Assembly (NCBI GenBank): GCA_021776525.1
Contig: JAJFFT010000002.1
Span: 1 to 64,000 of the forward strand
From: Robiginitomaculum sp.
GTDB taxonomy: Bacteria; Pseudomonadota; Alphaproteobacteria; Caulobacterales; Maricaulaceae
DNA: 64,000 bases
Reading direction: 5' to 3'
The position numbers and the translations under genes were made by a program. The notes below the pieces were generated by a model, which worked only from the letters and a program-made list of their open reading frames with translations, had not been told where the DNA came from and did no database searches. Positions 855 through 38,138 of this stretch are shown piece after piece. Position 1 is the first letter of the stretch. Every line of letters starts with the position of its first letter.

Positions 855-2237
855 ATGAAATTTAATATGAAATCGCTTCTGGGGGCTGTCGCGTTAAGCG
901 CAGCAACCCTGATCGTTCCTGCTGGTGCTGCGTTCGCGCAAAATGCGCCGGTCAAATCCATTGACGAGCTGATTGCCCGTGTTGGACGTGACAGTCGTGA
1001 AGCCAATGCCGAGGCCCAGCGTCGCGTGCAGGAGTTTACACAGAAAAAAGCTCAACAGCAGCGTTTGCTCAACACGGCCAAGTCGCAATTGCGTGCTTTT
1101 CGGGCGCAAGAGTCGGCAAACAATGCAAAACTGGATGCCAATAAGGCTCTGGTTCTGAAGCTTGATGAAGATCTGCGTGTTGCGCAGGGCTCATTTGGCG
1201 AATTGTTTGGCGCTGCTCGCCAGGCCGCTGGTGAAATCAAGGCTGTTGTCGATGTGTCTTTCATCTCCGGTCAGTATCCTGGCCGTGGTGAAGCTCTGGG
1301 CGAGGTTGCCAACAGTTCAAAATTGCCAGAAGTCTCCGAATTGGAAAATATTTATAGAACTATTTTGCAGGAAGCTCAGGCTCAAGGCGAAGTGATCACG
1401 TATTCCGGCTCACTTGCTGATGTGAACGATGGTGCGCCGGTTGATATTACCCGCGTTGGCTCGTTTACCTCATGGTTGGCCAAAGATGCTCGTTTCCTCA
1501 AGATTGATGAGGGCGAATTGGGTATGCTGGGTCGCCAGCCATCCGGACGCCTTCGTGGTCTGGCCAGGAATGTCAGCAATGGCAGCCCGGATAAAGTCAC
1601 CAAGGGTCCAGTTGACCCGACACGTGGTGTGCTTTTGGGTCTTGTGGTCCGTACACCTACTCTGATGGAACGCTATCACGCCGGTGGTAATATCGGTTAT
1701 GCCGTGAGTGTCATGGCCGCGATTGGTATCTTCATTGGTGTCTGGCGTCTGTTTGCTCTCTTTACCACTTCCATGGCTGTGCGCGCTCAAATGCGTAAAT
1801 CCAAACCTGGTAAAGGCAATCCTCTGGGCCGCATTATGGCTGCTTATGAAAGTGCCAAGGACAAGGACATCGAAACCATTGAGCTGAAACTTGATGATGC
1901 GATCCTCAAAGAAAGTGGCAAGCTTGAATTTGGTCTCAGCCTGATCAAGGTTCTGGCCGCTGTCTCACCTTTGATGGGGCTGTTGGGTACTGTGATCGGT
2001 ATGATCAAAACCTTCCAGGCAATTACCCTGTTTGGTGCCGGTGATCCGCAGCTGATGGCTGATGGTATCTCCTTTGCCCTGGTCACCACCGTTCTGGGTC
2101 TTCTCTCGGCTATTCCTCTTCTGCTGCTGCACAGCTTCTGCTCTTCTGCGAGCCGTAGTCTTCAGCAAGTTCTCGAAGAGCAAGCGGCTGGTATGGTTGC
2201 GGCGAATGCCGAAGCCCGCACCAGCAGCAAAGCTTAG
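855..2237 (+). CDS. TtpC-type MotA/TolQ/ExbB proton channel protein with long periplasmic N-domain
   Basis: 460 aa, about twice the size of a normal ExbB. A signal peptide (about 1-28, ending 'AFAQ') leads into a periplasmic region with coiled coil (about 35-110) and further sequence to about 270. A membrane segment lies near 275-300. The TolQ/ExbB core is C-terminal (about 360-440, with 'SPLMGLLGTVIGMIKTF' and a following hydrophobic helix pair). This layout is that of TtpC, an extra component of Vibrio-type TonB2 systems that links ExbB/ExbD/TonB function. It acts in the inner membrane to harness proton flow. The start has a purine-rich GAGGCGAG ribosome site. It lies between the DUF3450 gene and a standard ExbB-like gene. 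Confidence 0.9.
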   Translation: MKFNMKSLLGAVALSAATLIVPAGAAFAQNAPVKSIDELIARVGRDSREANAEAQRRVQEFTQKKAQQQRLLNTAKSQLRAFRAQESANNAKLDANKALVLKLDEDLRVAQGSFGELFGAARQAAGEIKAVVDVSFISGQYPGRGEALGEVANSSKLPEVSELENIYRTILQEAQAQGEVITYSGSLADVNDGAPVDITRVGSFTSWLAKDARFLKIDEGELGMLGRQPSGRLRGLARNVSNGSPDKVTKGPVDPTRGVLLGLVVRTPTLMERYHAGGNIGYAVSVMAAIGIFIGVWRLFALFTTSMAVRAQMRKSKPGKGNPLGRIMAAYESAKDKDIETIELKLDDAILKESGKLEFGLSLIKVLAAVSPLMGLLGTVIGMIKTFQAITLFGAGDPQLMADGISFALVTTVLGLLSAIPLLLLHSFCSSASRSLQQVLEEQAAGMVAANAEARTSSKA

Positions 2238-2275
2238 TCCTCCTGTAACGCTAAAGGATAGAGAAGGAAGGTATC

Positions 2276-2809
2276 ATGCCTGTTTGGCTTAACCCGATGA
2301 CGGCCTTGGATAATCTCCAACAATTTCTGGAGATGGGTGGGAATGTGCTCCTGCTGATCATGGTCGCCACCTTCTTCATGTGGGCCTACATTCTTGAACG
2401 GATGGCCTACTATCAGTTCGCACACGGACGTATCGTCAAGCGGGCGGTTAATAAATGGGCCTCAAGAGAAGATCATAAATCATGGTATGCGCATGCAATC
2501 CGTGAACAGTTGATCTCTGAGGTTCGTCAAAAAACCGAACAGAACATCCGGTTCATCAAGACATTGGTGGCGATTGCCCCTCTGCTTGGTTTGCTGGGGA
2601 CTGTAACCGGCATGATCGAGGTGTTCGACGTTATGGCAGCAACCGGATCTTCCAATGTACGGGCCATGTCGGCGGGGGTTTCCAAAGCCACCATTCCGAC
2701 AATGGCCGGCATGGTTGCGGCCCTTTCTGGACTGATTTTCACAAACCGGCTCGAGCGGCGGGGCCTGCGGGCAACACAGTCTGTCGCAGATGCCATGGAA
2801 TTAGGTTAG
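2276..2809 (+). CDS. exbB: ExbB/TolQ-family proton channel subunit
   Basis: 177 aa inner-membrane protein with three predicted membrane helices: about 15-40, then the pair at about 95-120 and 130-155. The MotA/TolQ/ExbB signature is visible as 'APLLGLLGTVTGMIEVF'. It is the normal-length ExbB of the cluster and would form the proton channel with the two downstream ExbD proteins. A GAAGGAAG ribosome site precedes the ATG. Its stop codon lies 9 bases before the next start, and the stop overlaps the purine-rich ribosome site for that gene, suggesting translational coupling. TolQ is an alternative name, but no tolR/tolA/tolB/pal genes are nearby. Confidence 0.9.
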   Translation: MPVWLNPMTALDNLQQFLEMGGNVLLLIMVATFFMWAYILERMAYYQFAHGRIVKRAVNKWASREDHKSWYAHAIREQLISEVRQKTEQNIRFIKTLVAIAPLLGLLGTVTGMIEVFDVMAATGSSNVRAMSAGVSKATIPTMAGMVAALSGLIFTNRLERRGLRATQSVADAMELG

Positions 2810-2818
2810 GAACAGCGT

Positions 2819-3232
2819 ATGTCTAGACATGGACGCCGCCGTGAACAGGAAGAAGTCGACGTTGATATGACGCCGATGCTGGATATCGTTTTTATCCTCC
2901 TGATCTTTTTCATTGTGACCGCAGTATTTGTGCAGGAGCGCTCCATCTCTTTGGTGCCTCCGCCGCCTTCGGAAAACGATGAACCAGAAAAGTCCAACCC
3001 GGTCATCCTTATTCAAATCAATGACCGTGACGTGATTTTTGTGAACGATCAATTGACCGACATTCGTCGGGTGGGCCCATCTATCGAGCGTTTTCGCGCT
3101 GATAAAGGGGATAGTGCCATCCTGATCGTGCCGGATGATGATGCCAGCCATGGTATTGTTGTGACTGTATTTGATGCAGCCCGAAATACTGGTGCACCAA
3201 CCATGATTCAACGTCAGGCGACGGGCTCCTAG
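2819..3232 (+). CDS. exbD: ExbD/TolR-family biopolymer transport protein (first copy)
   Basis: 137 aa. There is a short cytoplasmic N-terminus, then the family signature 'DMTPMLDIVFILLIFF' with the aspartate in the single membrane helix that carries protons in ExbD/TolR, followed by a periplasmic domain of about 90 residues. A proline run ('VPPPPSEN') follows the helix. It pairs with ExbB to convert the proton gradient into motion of TonB. A second, diverged copy lies 41 bases downstream, as is usual for TtpC-containing TonB clusters. Confidence 0.92.
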   Translation: MSRHGRRREQEEVDVDMTPMLDIVFILLIFFIVTAVFVQERSISLVPPPPSENDEPEKSNPVILIQINDRDVIFVNDQLTDIRRVGPSIERFRADKGDSAILIVPDDDASHGIVVTVFDAARNTGAPTMIQRQATGS

Positions 3233-3273
3233 CCCCGACCCCGGATTGATTTACTGATTAGCGGAGTAATGTG

Positions 3274-3675
3274 ATGGCAAGATCACGCGCAGCAAGTAAG
3301 GCAGAAGAAGTCGAAATGGACATGACGCCCATGTTGGACGTTGTTTTCATTCTGTTGATTTTCTTCATTGTTACGGCCGTGTTTGTTAAAGAACCAGGCG
3401 TCGACGTGAACAAGCCTTTGTGGGGCCCGGAAGTCGCAGCAGAAAAACCATCCATTATGGTTGCTGTGGCCAATGATGACCAAATCTGGATCAATAAGAA
3501 GATTGTTCCAAAAGCGGCTGTCGGTTCGATTCTGGAAAAAATGAAATCGGAAAACCCAAAAGCTGAGGGTGTTATTCAGGGCGACCAATTGGCGAAAATT
3601 GGTACGGTTCTTGATGTTCAAGACATTTTTTTATCTTTGGGAATTCCCGTCAAAGTTTCGATCGATAAAAGATAG
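3274..3675 (+). CDS. exbD: ExbD/TolR-family biopolymer transport protein (second copy)
   Basis: 133 aa. It has the same plan as the first copy: charged N-terminus, 'DMTPMLDVVFILLIFF' helix with the conserved aspartate, then a periplasmic domain. The helices are nearly identical in the two copies, but the periplasmic domains differ strongly, which suggests non-redundant or heteromeric use. The ATG at 3274 is preferred over the GTG at 3271 because GGAG at 3263-3266 is then 7 bases away. A terminator hairpin follows 31 bases after the stop, ending this transcription unit before tonB. Confidence 0.92.
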   Translation: MARSRAASKAEEVEMDMTPMLDVVFILLIFFIVTAVFVKEPGVDVNKPLWGPEVAAEKPSIMVAVANDDQIWINKKIVPKAAVGSILEKMKSENPKAEGVIQGDQLAKIGTVLDVQDIFLSLGIPVKVSIDKR

Positions 3676-3706
3676 TTTACCGATTGGATAGTGAAGATTT
3701 GAAAAG

Positions 3707-3740
3707 GCCGGCAGCATTTCGCAATGGTGTCGGCTTTTTA
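3707..3740 (+). terminator. Rho-independent terminator after the ExbB/ExbD genes
   Basis: An imperfect GCCGGCA/TGTCGGC stem encloses a loop of about 16 bases and is followed by TTTTTA. It separates the exbB/exbD genes from tonB, which must then have its own promoter or depend on read-through. Confidence 0.75.
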
Positions 3741-4010
3741 ATACCGATCAATTGGTGCTGGGTTTTACCGCATGGGTTGTGTCTATGGTCGTAAAGTCGC
3801 CTCAATGTTGTGCGACGTATTTATAGCCATGTATATTGAGAAAAATTCGCACATTCAGGCTGATAAAGGGCTGTTCGCGAAGGTTTCTAGTCGGTAAAGT
3901 ATTAAAAAATACCGATCAAAGTCGGTGATTCAGGGGGCGTGGAAAAGGGTATCCACAGGTTTGAATCGCCATTTGAATTTTGATGCGGGTGATTGCAACA
4001 GGAGTTCTTG
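3741..4010. other. Intergenic region upstream of tonB
   Basis: About 270 bases without a credible gene. The base composition is more AT-rich than the flanks. It should hold the tonB promoter because a terminator lies just before it. I could not pick out a convincing -35/-10 pair, Fur box or other named operator. The AGGAG ribosome site of tonB lies at its end. Confidence 0.5.
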
Positions 4011-4610
4011 ATGCGTTTTATAGCTGGATTGCCAATAGCTGCAATTATTACGGTTGGCTTGTTTTTGCTGATGCGTTTCTTCATATCTGGTGATTTCAAA
4101 TTGGCAGATAAAGAAGAATCTGTACGGTTTGATATCAATCCGAAAGTCCAGGAACTTGAGGTGCGTCAGCGGGAAGTAAAGCCTGAGCGGACCAAGGATG
4201 TGAAGCCACCACCCCCACCACCGGCCATTGAAAAGCAAAAAGCCGTTCAGCCTAATGAAGGCATTGCTTCGGTTTCCGGCTCTATTCCGGATTTTGAACC
4301 GCCGCAGCTGAACCGTGGTAATATCAATTTTCAGGTGAGTGATCGTGATGCCCAGCCATTAGTGCGTATCGAGCCGATTTACCCGCCGCGTGCTGCAGAA
4401 CAAGGCCGTGAAGGCACATGCGAAGGTACATTTGATGTGAGTGCAACGGGCAAACCCTATAATGTGCGTGTCAGCTGTACGTCATCCATGTTTGTTCGCG
4501 CTGCTACACGGGCCATTGAAAAATGGAAATACAATCCGAAAATTGTTGATGGTAAAGCTGTTGCGCGACGTGGTGTGATTACGCCATTCAAATTTCAGTT
4601 GGCTAACTAA
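4011..4610 (+). CDS. tonB: TonB-family energy transducer
   Basis: 199 aa. An N-terminal membrane anchor (about 4-23) is followed by a charged and proline-rich spacer (KPPPPPP around 65-72). The C-terminal TonB domain is at about 115-199, with 'RIEPIYPPRAAEQGREG' and 'AIEKWKYNP' matching the family. Two cysteines in the C-domain (in 'EGTCEG' and 'RVSCTS') could form a disulfide. It is short for a TonB, which is common for TonB2-type proteins that work with TtpC. The ATG at 4011 follows AGGAG by 6 bases; an in-frame upstream TTG (3993) has no such support. It would contact TonB-dependent receptors such as the one encoded at 19457-21688. Confidence 0.93.
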   Translation: MRFIAGLPIAAIITVGLFLLMRFFISGDFKLADKEESVRFDINPKVQELEVRQREVKPERTKDVKPPPPPPAIEKQKAVQPNEGIASVSGSIPDFEPPQLNRGNINFQVSDRDAQPLVRIEPIYPPRAAEQGREGTCEGTFDVSATGKPYNVRVSCTSSMFVRAATRAIEKWKYNPKIVDGKAVARRGVITPFKFQLAN

Positions 4611-19260: not shown

Positions 19261-19300
19261 TGAATAATGCCCTTGGCGAGTCCCACAGGGGCATTATTCA
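19261..19300. repeat. 12-bp inverted repeat between the TonB receptor gene and the Mrp operon
   Basis: TGAATAATGCCC (19261-19272) and GGGCATTATTCA (19289-19300) are perfectly complementary around a 16-base loop. It may end transcription of the receptor gene, but no T tract follows on the minus strand. It may instead be a regulatory element or transcript stabiliser upstream of mrpE. Confidence 0.6.
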
Positions 19301-19456: not shown

Positions 19457-21688
19457 TTATGGGCCAAGTTTTGCGGTGAGCGTAATACCAAACCTGCGCG
19501 GCGGCTCGTACCGCACGGTCTGGTTTTCAATCAATGGCCCCAATCCGGCGCCCCACAATTTTGTTACAGCCGGGCGTTGCACATTACCGATATTGGTCAG
19601 CCAAAATTTGACCTGCCAGTGCTCATCCACAGCCACATAACCCAGCGCCCCATTCCAAATGCCATAATCCCCCACAAAGGCGGAACCGCCCAGCGGTGCA
19701 TTGGCCGGTGCGGTGCGGTTAGTGTAATCCAGATGCGCCGTGAGCGCACCGCCATGGGGGGTGGGGCGGCGATAATCCAGGGCGCTGCTGAAGGTCCAGA
19801 CCGGTGCATCACCAAAACTGGTTCCCGAAAGATCAAGACCCGGGGCCGGGACAAAGTCATCATAGCGCGAGCGCACATACCCCAAAGAAGTCGACAGGTG
19901 CAAAGACGGGGTGATCCGGGCAAGAAGATCGGCCTCAAAGCCGCTAATATGGGCTTTGGCGGCATTGGTTAGGCTACGCAAAAACAAAAACGGCGGCTTT
20001 GAGACAGAAACCTGAATGTCAGTGTAATCCATCATAAAGGCCGAGGCATTGATCCGCAGTTTTTGATCAAACCAGGTGGATTTCAAACCGGTTTCATAAT
20101 TGGTCAAAAATTCGGGCCGGGTGAAGAAGCCAGACCCGGCGGCGATATCGGCGGCCGAGACAAAATCATCCTTGATGGCGGCGCTGCGATAACCGCGGCT
20201 GACACTTGTATAACCCATGACTTGCGGCGTGAACTGGCGGCGCACCCCGATCATCCAGGATAACGGACGATGTCGCACCGCCGTTCTGGCTTGCAAGGGT
20301 GGCAGTCCAAAAATCTCAAAGACCTCGCCAAAACTGTTGTAATCCACATTTTTTTTATCTTGCGAATACCGTGCGCCCCCATAAAGGGTCAGCCGTTCAT
20401 TGATATGAAAGTTGGCGTGTCCAAATAGCGCCGCATTGCGCGTGATGGTGGTCACGCGCTGGCCATCCAATTCATCTGCGGGGTGAAATTGCGCCGGTAT
20501 GCCCAGAACTTGTTCCAAAAAGGCGCTACCCATCACCGGAAATGTCGGGTTGAAGCCGCGCCGGGCGCGCAGATAATAGCCCCCGATCAAGTAATCATAA
20601 CGGGTATTTTGCGGCGAAGTGAGGCGAATTTCCTGGGAAAGTTCACGCGAGACACCATCAAACTGCGCAACTGTGATGGATTGCGGCAACCGGTCGCCAT
20701 CCTGAATATAAAAATCATCCGTATGGGACCAGCCGCTGGTCCAGCTCAGTTGGTGGCCGGTTTCAAACGTGTAATTGGCATTCAGCGAAGCGCGTTTGGC
20801 GTTCTGGGTTTGAAACTCATCCTGATCAAGGTTGATGGTATAGGGGATGGTGTCGGCACCGATATTGGTGATCGCCTCGCCCATTGTGTTGGGACGGTCG
20901 TCGCGCTTTTGCAGATTAAAAACCAGATGCGCGTCAAACCGGTCCGTGGGGGTGAAATAAAGCTGTGCCCCGATGGCTGTGTGGTCTTCGGCCCCGGCCT
21001 TGCGGCCGCTAAACGCATTGTGGATATACCCGCTGGTTTTGCGCGAAAGCGCATTCAGGCGCAGTACGGCAATATCGCTGATCAGGGGCAGGTCAGTATG
21101 GCCGGTGACCTGGCGCAGGCCATCACTGCCCAGCGTCATCTGGAGTTGGGCACCAAAATCCGGGCCGGGCTTTTGGGTGGTGATGTTAATCGCCCCGCCA
21201 ATGGTGTCGCGGCCAAACAAAGTGCCTTGGGGGCCTTTTAAGACCTCGACACGGGCAATATCGTTCATGGACACATCCATGGCCGTGTCTGTATTGACGT
21301 AAACACCATCAATATAAACGCCAACGGCCCGCCCCGAAGACCGGGTAATGCCGGCATTGATGCCGCGCAAGGTAATAAAACTCTGCCCGGCTTCGGTCGA
21401 GGCCGGCATATACATATTGGCGGTGTGATCGCCTAAGTCCTCAAGTCCTTTGGCCCTGAATGCGGTGATTTGTGCCTCGGTAAAGGCGGTGATCGACAAA
21501 GGGACACTTTGCAGATTTTGCGCACGGCGCATGGCGGTGACGATGATCTCGTCAATCTGGTCCGGGGCGGCGGTATTTTGCGCCATGGCGGGCGCCCCGA
21601 AAAGCGCCATAGTCAAGCCAAGGGCCAGAGCGCGCTGGTGTTGTTTATGCCTGGTCTCAGTCAAAGTTTTGGTGCGGGTTTTGCTCAT
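19457..21688 (-). CDS. TonB-dependent outer-membrane receptor, FMN-riboswitch controlled
   Basis: 743 aa. A signal peptide (about 1-37, 'GAPAMAQ') is followed by a TonB-box-like 'DEIIVTA' near 45-51. The plug domain is at about 60-165 ('GVYIDGVYV', 'VEVLKGPQGTLFGRDTIGG') and the rest is a 22-strand barrel ending 'RRFGITLTAKLGP'. This is an outer-membrane importer driven by TonB. The ATG at 21688 has AGAGGCG upstream and starts a normal signal peptide; the longer frame to 21790 adds residues unlike a leader. The gene stands alone behind an FMN riboswitch, so the likely substrate is riboflavin, FMN or another flavin. That substrate is inferred from regulation only. Confidence 0.93.
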   Translation of the reverse strand: MSKTRTKTLTETRHKQHQRALALGLTMALFGAPAMAQNTAAPDQIDEIIVTAMRRAQNLQSVPLSITAFTEAQITAFRAKGLEDLGDHTANMYMPASTEAGQSFITLRGINAGITRSSGRAVGVYIDGVYVNTDTAMDVSMNDIARVEVLKGPQGTLFGRDTIGGAINITTQKPGPDFGAQLQMTLGSDGLRQVTGHTDLPLISDIAVLRLNALSRKTSGYIHNAFSGRKAGAEDHTAIGAQLYFTPTDRFDAHLVFNLQKRDDRPNTMGEAITNIGADTIPYTINLDQDEFQTQNAKRASLNANYTFETGHQLSWTSGWSHTDDFYIQDGDRLPQSITVAQFDGVSRELSQEIRLTSPQNTRYDYLIGGYYLRARRGFNPTFPVMGSAFLEQVLGIPAQFHPADELDGQRVTTITRNAALFGHANFHINERLTLYGGARYSQDKKNVDYNSFGEVFEIFGLPPLQARTAVRHRPLSWMIGVRRQFTPQVMGYTSVSRGYRSAAIKDDFVSAADIAAGSGFFTRPEFLTNYETGLKSTWFDQKLRINASAFMMDYTDIQVSVSKPPFLFLRSLTNAAKAHISGFEADLLARITPSLHLSTSLGYVRSRYDDFVPAPGLDLSGTSFGDAPVWTFSSALDYRRPTPHGGALTAHLDYTNRTAPANAPLGGSAFVGDYGIWNGALGYVAVDEHWQVKFWLTNIGNVQRPAVTKLWGAGLGPLIENQTVRYEPPRRFGITLTAKLGP

Positions 21689-21810
21689 AAACGCCTCTGT
21701 CAGTTCACTGACTTCGGGGCGTTTTACAGGCGCGCACCAATACCCGACACGCCCAGACATCACCCAATACGGGCGTGCCATAGCGTGCACGAGCCATGCT
21801 CGTCTGCTCG

Positions 21811-21966
21811 ACCTTCTACCATCCGGACTGTAACCGTCGGCTCCGGGATCACACCGGAATCAGCTTGTCCTGCCATACAAAAGACAGAGCGCGCTCGCGG
21901 GCTTGTCAGGGTTGCCAAAACAGCCCTGCATCACCGCCGGTGGGGATTTTCACCCCGCCCCGAAGA
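21811..21966 (-). promoter_or_regulatory. FMN riboswitch (RFN element)
   Basis: On the minus strand the element runs from TCTTCGGGGCGGGGTGAAAA, through CCCCACCGGCGGTGA and AGCCCGCGAGC, to GATTCCGGTGTGATCCCGG, AGCCGACGGTTACAGTCCGG and ATGGTAGAAG. All conserved helices and joining segments of the RFN consensus are present in order, with closing ends TCTTC and GAAG(G). It lies about 120 bases upstream of the TonB receptor ATG. Hairpins at 21789-21803 (ACGAGC/GCTCGT) and 21748-21777 (CACGCCC/GGGCGTG) follow and could be the expression platform. FMN binding normally lowers expression. Confidence 0.97.
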
Positions 21967-21995
21967 TCAATTATTGCGGATTATCCGCGAGCAGG

Positions 21996-34561: not shown

Positions 34562-34633
34562 GAGAGGTTCGGTGGACAAGAATGTCTTTCGGCCTAAATG
34601 GCCGTTTCCCTTACAGAATGGAAGGACCCCATA

Positions 34634-35461
34634 ATGGCTATCTCAGTCAATACAAACACCGGTGCGCTTGTCGCACTACAAAACTTGAATACAACGAACA
34701 GGCAACTCGGCACCGTGCAAAACCGTATCAGTACAGGCTTGAAAGTCGCAAACGCCAAAGATAATGGCGGCGTTTTTGCTATCGCGCAAAAGCTGCGTGC
34801 GGATGTACGAAGCCTTGATGTGGTTGATCAGTCCCTGAGCCGAGTACAATCCCTTGTGGATGTTTCGGCGGCTGCGGGACAGGCCATTTCTGATTTGTTG
34901 ATCGATCTGAAGGAAAAAGCCCTGGCGGCGACGGATACGTCGTTGGACAGTGCATCGCGTACGGCATTGAACGAAGACTTCAAAGCCTTGCGGGATCAAA
35001 TCACCACGATCGTGAATAATGCCAGCTTTAACGGCACGAATTTAATCAACAACTCTACGGCGGCTATTAACGCTCTGGCGAGTGCAGATGGAACCAAGAC
35101 CATTACGGTTCTTGATGAAGCTCTGCAACTCAGTGGCTCGATCATTACGGTCACCACAACAGAGCAGGTAAACACAGTCACGAATGCCAAAGCGGCTTTG
35201 ACAGCAGTCAAAGCATCTTTGAACAATGTGAATGCTTCTCTGGCTCGTCTTGGGACCAAATCGAGAGCTTTGGAAATTCAATCAGAATTTCTGACCAAGC
35301 TTTCCGATGCGGTGGTTGCGTCAATCGGCAGTCTTGTCGATGCGGATCTGGCCAAGGAGAGTGCGAATTTGCAGGCCTTGCAGGTCAAGCAACAGCTTGG
35401 CGTACAAGCGCTTTCAATCGCCAATCAGGCTCCACAGACCATTTTGAGCTTCTTCCAGTAA
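34634..35461 (+). CDS. fliC: Flagellin (copy 1)
   Basis: 275 aa. The conserved N-terminal D0/D1 helices ('NRISTGLKVANAKDNGG', 'IAQKLRADVRSLDVV') and the C-terminal D1/D0 helices ('QLGVQALSIANQAPQTIL') flank a very short variable centre (about 135-190), as in Caulobacter-type flagellins. It forms the filament after export by the flagellar secretion system. Serine/threonine residues in the centre are possible glycosylation sites for the FlmG-like transferase. The ATG at 34634 follows AAGGA. A strong terminator follows. Confidence 0.96.
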   Translation: MAISVNTNTGALVALQNLNTTNRQLGTVQNRISTGLKVANAKDNGGVFAIAQKLRADVRSLDVVDQSLSRVQSLVDVSAAAGQAISDLLIDLKEKALAATDTSLDSASRTALNEDFKALRDQITTIVNNASFNGTNLINNSTAAINALASADGTKTITVLDEALQLSGSIITVTTTEQVNTVTNAKAALTAVKASLNNVNASLARLGTKSRALEIQSEFLTKLSDAVVASIGSLVDADLAKESANLQALQVKQQLGVQALSIANQAPQTILSFFQ

Positions 35462-35477
35462 GTTCGTTAAAATCACA

Positions 35478-35506
35478 GGGCCGCGGTTTTCGCGGCCCTT
35501 TTTTTT
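35478..35506 (+). terminator. Rho-independent terminator of flagellin gene 1
   Basis: A perfect GGGCCGCG/CGCGGCCC stem with a 5-base loop is followed by eight T bases. The 314-base interval from this flagellin to the next otherwise holds only the sigma-54 promoter at 35684. Confidence 0.93.
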
Positions 35507-35683
35507 GCCCTTTGTTTACCATAACAGCGGTGCGAAAATGCCTAGTCGGCAAAAATGATCCCACAGATTTTATATAAACAGGCAAAAATTGCCGTGCCAT
35601 AATGGCGCAAGTCCTTGTTTTTTCGTCGCAAGGCCTTGTTTTCCCTGGAAACTAGGCAAAATCCTCCACATCCCTTTTTCAAC

Positions 35684-35699
35684 TGGCGCGGGCCTTGCA
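35684..35699 (+). promoter_or_regulatory. Sigma-54 promoter of flagellin gene 2
   Basis: CTGGCGCGGGCCTTGC keeps the GG-N10-GC spacing. Transcription would start near 35710, leaving a leader of about 65 bases. The -24 element (GGCGC) is slightly weaker than that of copy 1. Confidence 0.8.
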
Positions 35700-35775
35700 A
35701 ATGAATTTGCGGGTCAAAGACCCCGGCTGCGCAAAATGCGCGGCATGAAAACCAGAATGGAAAGGAATCCAAGAA

Positions 35776-36600
35776 ATGGCTTCTGTAAATACTAATGTAG
35801 GCGCCCTCGTTGCGCTTCAAAACCTCAATGCAACAAACAGCTCACTGAGCACTGTGCAAAACCGTATCAGTACTGGCCTGAAAGTTTCCAGCGCCAAAGA
35901 TAACGGCGGTGCATTTGCCATTGCTCAAAAATTGCGCGGTGATGTTCGCTCATTTGACGTGGTCAAAGAGTCTCTGAGCCGTGTTGGCTCCGCTGTTGAT
36001 GTTGCATCAGCCGCTGGTCAGGCGATCTCTGATCTTCTGATTGATTTGAAAGAAAAAGCCCTTGCCGCGACGGATACGTCTTTGGACAGTGCATCACGGA
36101 CAGCTTTGAACGAAGATTTCAAGGCTCTGCGTGATCAAATCACCACGATCGTTTCAAATGCCAGCTTTAACGGCACTAACCTGATCAACAACTCAACCGC
36201 ATCTATTGCCGCTTTGGCTAATGCCGATGGTTCAGCTGCGATCACTGTTCTTGATGAAGCCCTGCAATTGAGTGGCTCTATCGTGACTTTGAACACCACT
36301 GATACTGTTGACACAGTCACAAACGCAAAAGCTTCGCTGACTGCTATTAAAGCGTCGATCACAAACGTGAACTCCTCTCTGGCTCGTTTGGGCACCAAGT
36401 CCAAAGCTCTGGAAATTCAGTCGAAGTTTGTGACACAGCTTTCCGATGCTCTGACCGCCTCTATCGGCAACCTTGTCGATGCGGATCTGGCCAAAGAAAG
36501 TGCGAACTTACAAGCCTTGCAGGTCAAGCAGCAGCTTGGCGTACAGGCGCTTTCAATCGCCAATCAGGCACCGCAGTCGATTCTCGGATTCTTCCGATAG
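35776..36600 (+). CDS. fliC: Flagellin (copy 2)
   Basis: 274 aa and closely related to copy 1 over its whole length, with identical long stretches in the terminal helices; the DNA of the 3' ends is also nearly identical, so recombination between copies is possible. Differences cluster in the short central region (about 140-215). The ATG has AAAGGA upstream. It is followed by two hairpins and the flaG gene. Confidence 0.96.
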   Translation: MASVNTNVGALVALQNLNATNSSLSTVQNRISTGLKVSSAKDNGGAFAIAQKLRGDVRSFDVVKESLSRVGSAVDVASAAGQAISDLLIDLKEKALAATDTSLDSASRTALNEDFKALRDQITTIVSNASFNGTNLINNSTASIAALANADGSAAITVLDEALQLSGSIVTLNTTDTVDTVTNAKASLTAIKASITNVNSSLARLGTKSKALEIQSKFVTQLSDALTASIGNLVDADLAKESANLQALQVKQQLGVQALSIANQAPQSILGFFR

Positions 36601-36617
36601 TCTAAGCAACAGGGGAA

Positions 36618-36701
36618 GTCGGCGTAGGCACGGGGTCCGCGTGCGCCGACAGACCTTCGAAAGATCTGGCCTGAGCGTGCGCAAGATGCGCTGGCCAGAT
36701 C
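36618..36701 (+). other. Two hairpins between flagellin 2 and flaG
   Basis: The first hairpin pairs GTCGGCG (36618-36624) with CGCCGAC (36644-36650), with inner pairing GCACG/CGTGC. The second pairs GATCTGGCC (36663-36671) with GGCCAGATC (36693-36701). Neither has a T tract, so they are more likely mRNA processing or partial-attenuation structures that lower flaG expression relative to flagellin. Confidence 0.55.
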
Positions 36702-36734
36702 AATCGAGGAGGCCGGTAAGCCGGTAAAGGAACA

Positions 36735-37085
36735 ATGGCAAACGAGATACGCAAGTTTCCGTCTCTTGTTCCGCCGCCAGCCAAGGCTGGCAATGGTGGC
36801 GGCTCAGCCACGGAATCACAAAACAACACAGAACAAGCCGCGCCAGATGCGGGCACCGATACCTCTGTATCTCTGTCGATCAGAGACGGAGCAAAGTTGC
36901 CGCAATCGCCGACGGCGAACACCCACCTTGTCATCGAGAAAGATGATGTCAGCGGCGGGTTTATCTATAAAAGCATTGACCGGGAAACCGGCGAGGTGTT
37001 GCAGCAATTTCCGCGTGAAGAGGTTTTACGGGCGATTGCCAGAGCACGGGCCGCCGAAGGCCAAATCATCGATACCGAAGCCTGA
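36735..37085 (+). CDS. flaG: FlaG family flagellar protein
   Basis: 116 aa. A low-complexity N-terminal half precedes a conserved C-terminal FlaG domain ('LVIEKDDVSGGFIYKSIDRE', 'VLQQFPREEVLRAIARARA'). FlaG proteins influence filament length or cap function. It lacks a clear promoter of its own and is probably read from the flagellin 2 promoter through the two hairpins. AAAGGAACA precedes the ATG. Confidence 0.9.
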   Translation: MANEIRKFPSLVPPPAKAGNGGGSATESQNNTEQAAPDAGTDTSVSLSIRDGAKLPQSPTANTHLVIEKDDVSGGFIYKSIDRETGEVLQQFPREEVLRAIARARAAEGQIIDTEA

Positions 37086-37223
37086 AACAGGCATAATATC
37101 CAACCCGGCAAAACCAGCCCATCGGCACGTCCGGGCCGGTCACTATGGTTAATATTGCCGCCCGCGAAAAATCAAAAAACTGTAACATATTGAAAACATG
37201 ACGCATTGCGTGGTGTTTCAAAC

Positions 37224-37239
37224 TGGCATGAGTGTTGCT
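37224..37239 (+). promoter_or_regulatory. Sigma-54 promoter of flagellin gene 3
   Basis: TGGCATGAGTGTTGCT keeps GG-N10-GC. Transcription would start near 37250, about 50 bases ahead of the ATG at 37302. Confidence 0.83.
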
Positions 37240-37301
37240 GATCATAAGGCAAGTTGAACGGACCATTCCGTCAAAAGCCAAATGATGCGTCGGAGCACAC
37301 C

Positions 37302-38138
37302 ATGACAATCAGTGTACATACCAATACTTCTGCGTTGGCCGCTTTACAGCAGCTCAACAAAACCAATGTGCAATTGGATAATGTCCAGACCAGAATCAAC
37401 ACCGGTTTGAAGGTCTCAGGCGCCAAGGATAATGCCGCAGTTTTCGCTGTGGCGCAGAGTTTGCGATCAGATATCGGAGCCTATAGCGCGGTTGGCACGT
37501 CGCTGGATCGGGCGGCCTCTATTGGTAATGTGGGGTTGGCCGCAGGCGAATCGATTTCTGACTTGCTGATCGAATTACGGGCCAAGGCCACGGCGGCCAC
37601 AGAAACCTCGATTGATACCTTCACCCGAAAAGCCTTTGATTCTGACTTTAAGGCGATTATCTCGCAAATTTCGACGATCCTTGCCAATGCAGAATTTGAC
37701 GGCGCCAATATTCTCGACAGCTCCAACTCGCCAGGTATTGGCTTTCTGGCTGACGCCGATGGGACACGGACACTGACCCTTAAAACGCAAAACCTGTCCT
37801 TTGGCGGATCAATCATCACCCTTTCTGCCAGCGCATCGCTGGGCACTGTGACGCTGGCCAAAGCCGCCGTGACGGCGGTGAAGGCCTCGCTGGATAATGT
37901 TAATCAGGCGCTGGCTAATCTTGGCTCTGACGTCAAAAAGCTCGAAGCGCACAGTATTTTTGTCAGCAAGCTGACCGATTCACTGACCGTTGGGGTCGGT
38001 AATCTGGTCGATGCGGATCTGGCGGTGGAAAGCGCCAAATTACAGGCCTTGCAGGTCCAGCAACAATTGGGCGTACAGGCCCTTGGCATCGCCAATTCAC
38101 GACCACAGATCATTCTGTCCTTGTTCCAGGGCGGTTAA
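37302..38138 (+). CDS. fliC: Flagellin (copy 3, diverged)
   Basis: 278 aa. It has the same D0/D1 architecture as the other two, but diverges clearly throughout ('NRI' becomes 'TRINTGLKVSGAKDNAA'; C-terminus 'QLGVQALGIANSRPQIILSLF'). It is probably a filament segment with a distinct position, as in multi-flagellin alphaproteobacteria. The ATG at 37302 has GGAG upstream; the in-frame start at 37254 is ahead of the leader region. Confidence 0.95.
   Translation: MTISVHTNTSALAALQQLNKTNVQLDNVQTRINTGLKVSGAKDNAAVFAVAQSLRSDIGAYSAVGTSLDRAASIGNVGLAAGESISDLLIELRAKATAATETSIDTFTRKAFDSDFKAIISQISTILANAEFDGANILDSSNSPGIGFLADADGTRTLTLKTQNLSFGGSIITLSASASLGTVTLAKAAVTAVKASLDNVNQALANLGSDVKKLEAHSIFVSKLTDSLTVGVGNLVDADLAVESAKLQALQVQQQLGVQALGIANSRPQIILSLFQGG

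Follow-up and report, generated by a model that had tools for sequence, protein, structure and literature searches.

The receptor locus and its leader

In the window, that is, the whole 64 kb stretch of Robiginitomaculum DNA analysed here, a gene encoding a TonB-dependent receptor (TBDR), denoted TBDR1, is preceded by an FMN riboswitch on the same strand, and the genes of a TonB system are found in the same stretch. The relevant features are as follows:

21807-21971, minus strand: complete FMN riboswitch aptamer (RFN element), matched by RF00050; sole copy found in the genome
21727-21806, minus strand: long structured arm of the expression platform, from the aptamer to the last hairpin (minimum-free-energy fold, z -3.2)
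21689-21724, minus strand: hairpin pairing the bases before the start codon, a candidate ribosome-site sequestor (folds; 9/9 genus leaders)
19457-21688, minus strand: TonB-dependent receptor TBDR1, 743 aa plus stop, candidate outer-membrane flavin importer (Pfam; orthologs behind the riboswitch in eight more genomes)
855-2231, plus strand: MotA/TolQ/ExbB-family protein of the TonB cluster, possible energiser of the receptor (PF01618, E 1.1e-27)
2276-2803, plus strand: ExbB-like protein, possible energiser (PF01618, E 9.2e-26)
2819-3226, plus strand: ExbD-like protein, possible energiser (PF02472, E 6.6e-26)
3274-3669, plus strand: second ExbD-like protein, possible energiser (PF02472, E 1.1e-20)
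3996-4604, plus strand: TonB protein, possible energiser (PF03544, E 5.6e-18)

When the whole window was searched with cmscan, RF00050 matched the minus strand at 21971-21807 over model positions 1-138 of 138, with a score of 101.8 bits (E 1.7e-22) against a gathering score of 66.2 bits; no other Rfam family exceeds its gathering score in the window, and no second RF00050 match was found in the genome (2,955,456 bases, 94.73% complete). The 3' edge of the aptamer at 21807 precedes the receptor ATG at 21688 on the same strand, which places the aptamer in the 5' leader of the receptor. The initial annotation had reported a full RFN element in this leader, on the receptor strand, and had proposed a search with the RF00050 covariance model as the check: this search recovers the element at full model length, above threshold. 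The feature end given previously, 21966, does fall inside the aptamer but stops 5 bases short of its 5' end. The presence of an FMN riboswitch ahead of a TBDR gene is thus confirmed as a real observation.

The remainder of the leader (21806-21686) is more stable than dinucleotide shuffles of it (z -3.2, minimum-free-energy fold), and its predicted structure consists of a long arm plus a hairpin that includes the bases directly before the ATG, so the two candidate expression hairpins described in the initial annotation were about right. Folding predicts a hairpin at the ribosome-site zone in all nine leaders of the genus that precede an ortholog of TBDR1, and these leaders further share, behind the aptamer, a CAGAC start or a variant of it (most divergent in G309), a long arm, which in most of them has a similar CAG/CUG-type closing, and a CCCC-containing stretch. 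In 8/9 leaders z is -3.2 or lower, the exception being G307 (z -1.5), whose stability does not exceed expectation and which in this respect speaks against the model. Although its sequence varies among species on either side, the last hairpin can still pair (AACGCC/GGCGTT in the window, AAACCCC/GGGGTTT in G309, AACACCC/GGGTGTT in G308), as read off the leaders rather than by a formal covariation count. The simplest model for such a leader would be translational repression by FMN, with the switching itself presumed.

The receptor open reading frame spans 19457-21790, and the likely start is the ATG at 21688, which yields a protein of 743 aa. Its N-terminus looks hydrophobic and a DEIIVTA stretch can be spotted in it, candidates by eye only for a signal sequence and a TonB box. 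The barrel (PF00593, E 5.4e-38) and Plug (PF07715, E 1.3e-17) domains are both found above the Pfam cut-off. Beyond that, none of the 25 NCBIfam models among the matches listed reaches its cut-off, so these matches identify the protein as a TBDR only. We accordingly rejected assignment to BtuB, the cobalamin receptor (TIGR01779, 61.1 vs 599.7; NF007926, 48.1 vs 836), to the siderophore receptors (TIGR01783, 120 bits vs a cut-off of 223.5) and, with no model at cut-off among the 25 listed, to the haem receptors. Among solved structures the pesticin receptor is matched best (E 1.2e-15), and most of the structure matches are plug-region alignments to many TBDRs.

Could TBDR1, then, import an iron chelate, haem or another cofactor, with FMN merely reporting the redox or iron state of the cell? 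That the best, albeit sub-threshold, NCBIfam match is a siderophore-receptor subfamily and that the best structural match is the pesticin receptor are compatible with such a role, as is the interaction of riboflavin and iron regulation reported for Vibrio cholerae, whose tonB1 is repressed by riboflavin (PMC5816637, PMC6041382). We nevertheless consider this possibility improbable: the failure of all the listed models to reach cut-off speaks against it, and it offers no ready reason for the distribution of riboflavin synthesis genes or for the second receptor family described below.

Upstream of the leader lies a DUF2336 gene (Pfam), and downstream of the receptor an Mrp-type antiporter cluster recognised by eye. 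An inverted repeat (AATAATGCCC ... GGGCATTATT) noticed by eye at 19262-19300, between the receptor and the antiporter cluster, might be a terminator or an operator. Neither a rib gene nor a flavin permease adjoining the receptor was recognised in the window neighbourhood, as had been stated before, and the receptor gene looks monocistronic. The TonB system to which attention had been drawn in the same window, putatively of the TtpC type, is likewise present: by Pfam, the gene set at 855-4604 encodes two MotA/ExbB-family proteins, two ExbD proteins and one TonB_C protein. Elsewhere in the window, three consecutive flagellin-like open reading frames of 274-294 residues were noted by eye at 34598-38135.

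Riboswitch, receptor and riboflavin synthesis genes

Across 18 genomes of the genus, including that of the window (G000), RF00050 is found in 10, and the next gene is an ortholog of TBDR1 in nine of these and ribD in the tenth (G004), where the riboswitch precedes a ribD-ribE-ribBA-ribH cluster. Within the genus, the orthologous receptors keep the riboswitch, the pair being present in nine genomes. The eight other orthologs, two of which are cut by contig ends, are 58-71% identical to the window protein, and the aptamers of the nine genomes score 92-109 bits even though the receptors differ by up to 42%. When the eight other neighbourhoods were compared with that of the window, the DUF2336 gene was found to be kept in 7/8, and the antiporter genes behind the receptor in six of these seven, the G299 contig ending inside the receptor; the G309 contig, 3.6 kb long and likewise broken off within the receptor, carries neither DUF2336 nor antiporter genes.

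The genes for riboflavin synthesis show the reverse distribution. Both ribH (PF00885) and RibD_C (PF01872) are found in only 2/18 genomes, namely G004 and G311, both devoid of TBDR1, and both families were detected in 14/14 control genomes. In the nine TBDR1 genomes, three of which (G300, G308, G309) are only 70-87% complete, neither ribH nor ribD was detected (0/9). By contrast, the RibF family (PF06574) is present in 15/18 genomes, including that of the window, in 11/11 of those with a completeness of 90% or more and a contamination of 5% or less, and in 8/9 TBDR1 genomes, being missed in G308 alone (70% complete). Given that ribH and ribD are undetected and RibF is present in most of them, the nine TBDR1 genomes appear to belong to riboflavin auxotrophs that would still convert riboflavin to FMN and FAD; of the synthesis genes, the search in the genus covered ribH and ribD. 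Seven further genomes of the genus (G301, G302, G304, G305, G306, G242, G310), four of them 92-96% complete, contain no RF00050, ribH or ribD and no match to TBDR1 at 1e-60, so auxotrophs of this genus can apparently manage without the receptor.

An association between a receptor behind the riboswitch and the absence of ribH also emerges at the level of the order, for which 200 genomes were sampled and up to 1000 bases behind each riboswitch were compared with reference proteins. RF00050 was found in 48/200 of these genomes (47 above the cut-off) and ribH in 184/200. Behind the 48 riboswitches, the best match is ribD in 30, a ribH-type gene in 6, an EamA gene in 1 and a TBDR in 10; the one locus without a match is that of G189, where the contig stops after 128 bases, in a genome that lacks ribH. 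Where a TBDR follows the riboswitch, ribH is always missing (10/10 genomes), and where the riboswitch is followed by a rib gene or an EamA gene, ribH is always present (37/37; Fisher p 1.9e-10 if the genomes were independent, which they are not, as the receptor cases come from three genera); since the genomes represent few clades, such counts overstate independence. It is this link (ribH absent in 10/10 vs 0/37) for which import of iron chelates, haem or other cofactors has no ready reason. An FMN riboswitch ahead of a transport gene in genomes devoid of synthesis genes is the pattern by which riboflavin transport genes are recognised, and, with a TBDR as the presumed transport gene, it is seen in 9/9 TBDR1 genomes of the genus (for ribH and ribD) and in the 10/10 order genomes with a TBDR after the riboswitch (for ribH).

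The 16 ribH-less genomes of the order comprise the 10 TBDR cases, G189 and five without RF00050 (G073, G163, G134, G151, G164), and two of these five, G073 and G163, encode a homolog of TBDR1 (about 51%) whose locus, as far as examined, has no riboswitch. In G073 (locus L072), the homolog is split into two pieces that overlap, and one of the matches contains a stop; this could reflect an assembly error or a decaying gene. Altogether, TBDR1 homologs outside the genus were detected in 8/299 order genomes (E<=1e-80, 31-52% identity). No RF00050 was found at any of these eight loci, and no recognisable flavin gene was noted by eye near the homologs of G163, G203, G073, G217 and G187. In G187, G115, G180 and G060 the homolog coexists with ribH. 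The missing riboswitch of these homologs and the four genomes with ribH, along with the seven rib-less congeners that lack the receptor, count against flavin import as the function of TBDR1.

The initial annotation had further suggested looking for ribN elsewhere in the genome. With the EamA protein encoded behind the G106 FMN riboswitch as the query, no match at E<=0.001 was found in the genome of the window, and only 1/18 genomes of the genus was matched, weakly. In the genome of the window, the major facilitator (MFS) protein of the receptor operons described in the next section matched G000:C7:104422-105492 (L098) at only 26%. Ten MFS genes of the L098 type (alike at about 73-98%) are present in the nine TBDR1 genomes and G242, with no match in the rib-bearing G004 and G311, and L098 is at most a weak candidate. 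Because a gene resembling the adaptor of a presumed efflux pump comes next in most of these loci, G000 included (by eye), we do not claim the L098-type proteins as flavin permeases. With these two queries, one EamA and one MFS protein, no inner-membrane flavin permease was identified in the genome of the window, a result that also weighs against flavin import.

A second receptor family and probable reuse of the riboswitch

Only two of the 10 order genomes with a TBDR behind the riboswitch, G000 and G014, have TBDR1. The other eight share a different receptor, TBDR2, and belong to two genera of another family, g28 (G149, G059, G094) and g16 (G104, G129, G045, G194, G040). With the TBDR2 of G129 as the reference, identity over the stretch compared is 63-84% for the seven others, and identity between TBDR2 and TBDR1 does not exceed 27% over 150-210 residues; Pfam finds the plug but not the barrel model in TBDR2, and the NCBIfam TBDR models stay below cut-off. 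In 8/8 loci of the order, TBDR2 is directly followed by a gene for an MFS protein (MFS_1, PF07690). The combination of riboswitch, TBDR2 and MFS gene was observed in these eight ribH-less genomes and in G427, described below, at loci L082, L083, L084, L087, L090, L180, L181, L182 and L183. By appearance, such a locus is predicted to be a complete two-membrane import operon.

The vicinity of these operons hints at how they arose. A divergent gene resembling agmatine deiminase (named by eye) lies upstream of riboswitch-TBDR2 in 8/8 loci and also upstream of riboswitch-ribD in 5/13 rib loci of the same genera, namely G074, G010 and G005 of 11 in g16 and both in g28 (G099, G089). Several of the other eight rib loci were read with merely 0.3-0.6 kb of upstream sequence, and in G035, G179 and G184 there is no match to this neighbour in the 1.5 kb upstream. 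In a tree of 50 aptamer sequences (five order loci and G427 were left out, and 'rib' denotes all non-TBDR loci), the TBDR2 aptamers of g28 (support 0.99) nest in a g28 group (0.998) together with the rib aptamers of that genus, and those of g16 (0.92) adjoin a g16 rib aptamer with the weak support of 0.64; a grouping of the TBDR1 aptamers with the rib aptamer of G004 was not seen in this tree. Thus, the shared upstream neighbour and the aptamer tree suggest that the receptor genes displaced a rib operon downstream of a riboswitch that was already there, a scenario that appears well supported for g28 and likely for g16.

The same neighbour, shared by riboswitch-TBDR2 and 5/13 riboswitch-ribD loci, could be taken to mean that the riboswitch is simply a relic of a lost rib operon behind which a receptor gene happens to lie. 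On our reading of this shared neighbour, rib genes were indeed lost in g16 and g28 while the riboswitch ahead of them was kept. As an account of the receptor's position, however, chance seems very improbable to us: the aptamer keeps 92-109 bits in the nine genomes despite receptors that are up to 42% different, the leader retains the hairpin over the ribosome-site zone, and two distant TBDR families occupy the same position, one of them always with an MFS gene. That a second TBDR family stands in place of rib operons also has no ready reason if the receptors import substrates other than flavins.

In the class as a whole, TBDRs behind FMN riboswitches are rare. RF00050 is present in 70/385 genomes of the class (71 matches), and of the 68 loci examined, the window's own and two below cut-off having been left out, 63 have riboflavin synthesis genes behind the riboswitch, three an EamA gene, one an NMN-transporter-family gene and one TBDR2 plus MFS. 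It is because only 1/68 of these loci has a TBDR that we call the arrangement rare in the class. The last case, G427, belongs to another family, and its receptor and MFS protein show 57.7% and 47.4% identity, respectively. The NMN_transporter-family protein (PnuC/RibM-like; PF04973, E 1e-28) is encoded in G417 (L163:2924-3799, minus strand); a comparative survey reports FMN-linked members of this family from Actinobacteria alone (PMC4418817). EamA-family proteins that are RibN-like by place were also seen behind FMN riboswitches at L004, L115, L121 and L153.

Probable flavin import and comparison with known systems

Taken together, we consider it highly probable that TBDR1 mediates FMN-repressed, TonB-driven import of flavins in a riboflavin auxotroph, a prediction drawn from the comparison of genomes. 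The initial annotation had proposed flavin uptake, and this proposal is strengthened by the conservation of the riboswitch-receptor pair in nine genomes of the genus in which ribH and ribD are undetected, as well as by the distant TBDR+MFS pair that follows the FMN riboswitch in other ribH-less genomes. At high cellular FMN, the aptamer (21807-21971) would bind FMN, and in the FMN-bound leader the hairpin at 21689-21724 would hide the ribosome site of the receptor mRNA, the direction of the switch being presumed; at low FMN, this site would be freed and the receptor made. TonB-ExbB-ExbD would then drive a flavin through the receptor across the outer membrane, both the coupling to TonB and the substrate being predicted, and a putative inner-membrane permease followed by RibF would finish the route. 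Candidate substrates are riboflavin, FMN, FAD or a flavin-bearing compound, and the present comparisons do not distinguish between riboflavin, FMN and flavin conjugates.

TonB-driven import is typically spent on scarce or large substrates. Within the flavin import scenario, it is therefore conceivable, if rather doubtful, that the real substrate is not free riboflavin but a larger flavin-bearing compound, such as FAD, a conjugate or a flavopeptide. The passage of riboflavin across the outer membrane is ascribed to porins, and porin-dependent diffusion of riboflavin has been reported (PMC12319065), which would be in line with a larger substrate; the small size that permits such passage can also be held against TonB-driven flavin import as such (PMC12319065). 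Conversely, none of the findings points specifically to a larger compound, and no peptidase, phosphatase or binding-protein gene linked to the receptor was recognised by eye at the loci examined.

If, as we believe, flavin import is the function of these receptors, they likely represent a new class of vitamin importers, FMN-riboswitch TonB-dependent flavin receptors, that were recruited about three times or more and in two genera replaced the rib operon; the recruitments counted, to which the same degree of confidence applies, are TBDR1, TBDR2+MFS in two genera of another family, and the G427 copy elsewhere in the class. Should this hold, vitamin B2 would join B12 and B1 as a vitamin imported via riboswitch-controlled TBDRs, and in two genera a riboswitch that once controlled synthesis would have come to control scavenging when riboflavin synthesis disappeared from the lineage, a natural example of a riboswitch with an unchanged ligand and a new task, uptake instead of production. 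It would also illustrate the competition among auxotrophs for B2 where this vitamin is scarce, and an FMN riboswitch followed by a TBDR could serve as a genome marker for B2-dependent bacteria.

TBDRs behind cobalamin and TPP riboswitches are already known (PMC5756330, PMC5317091, PMC10409787). For FMN, a survey of 842 riboswitches in 1133 genomes names non-synthesis genes in its Table 1, with no TBDR among them, and neither 'tonb' nor 'outer membrane' occurs in its main text (PMC4418817); the main text of a regulon survey (PMC3766115) contains neither term either. In what the open-licence literature makes accessible, no earlier report of an FMN riboswitch ahead of a TBDR was found.

How, then, does the present system compare with the known ones? 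The thiamine TBDRs of Caldithrix abyssi and Variovorax, which follow TPP riboswitches, resemble it in that a cofactor riboswitch precedes a TBDR predicted to import the vitamin (PMC5317091, PMC10409787), and the Caldithrix locus, which also contains a symporter gene, recalls TBDR2+MFS. They differ in both ligand and receptor, and the Variovorax TBDR belongs to a thiamine synthesis operon. The cobalamin-riboswitch TBDRs of the BtuB type are likewise riboswitch-controlled vitamin receptors (PMC5317091, PMC5756330), from which TBDR1 is set apart by missing the TIGR01779 cut-off and by RF00050 as the sole Rfam family above threshold in the window. RfnT is an MFS riboflavin transporter of Proteobacteria. 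The TBDR2 operons elsewhere, which end in an MFS protein (PF07690), are comparable to it in this respect, whereas no MFS gene is linked to the receptor of the window. Finally, the transporters already known behind FMN riboswitches (RibU, RibM, RibN, ImpX, RibXY, RfuABCD, RibZ and RibV) are flavin uptake genes as well, but these are permeases or binding-protein systems (PMC4418817), whereas the one in the window is an outer-membrane receptor.
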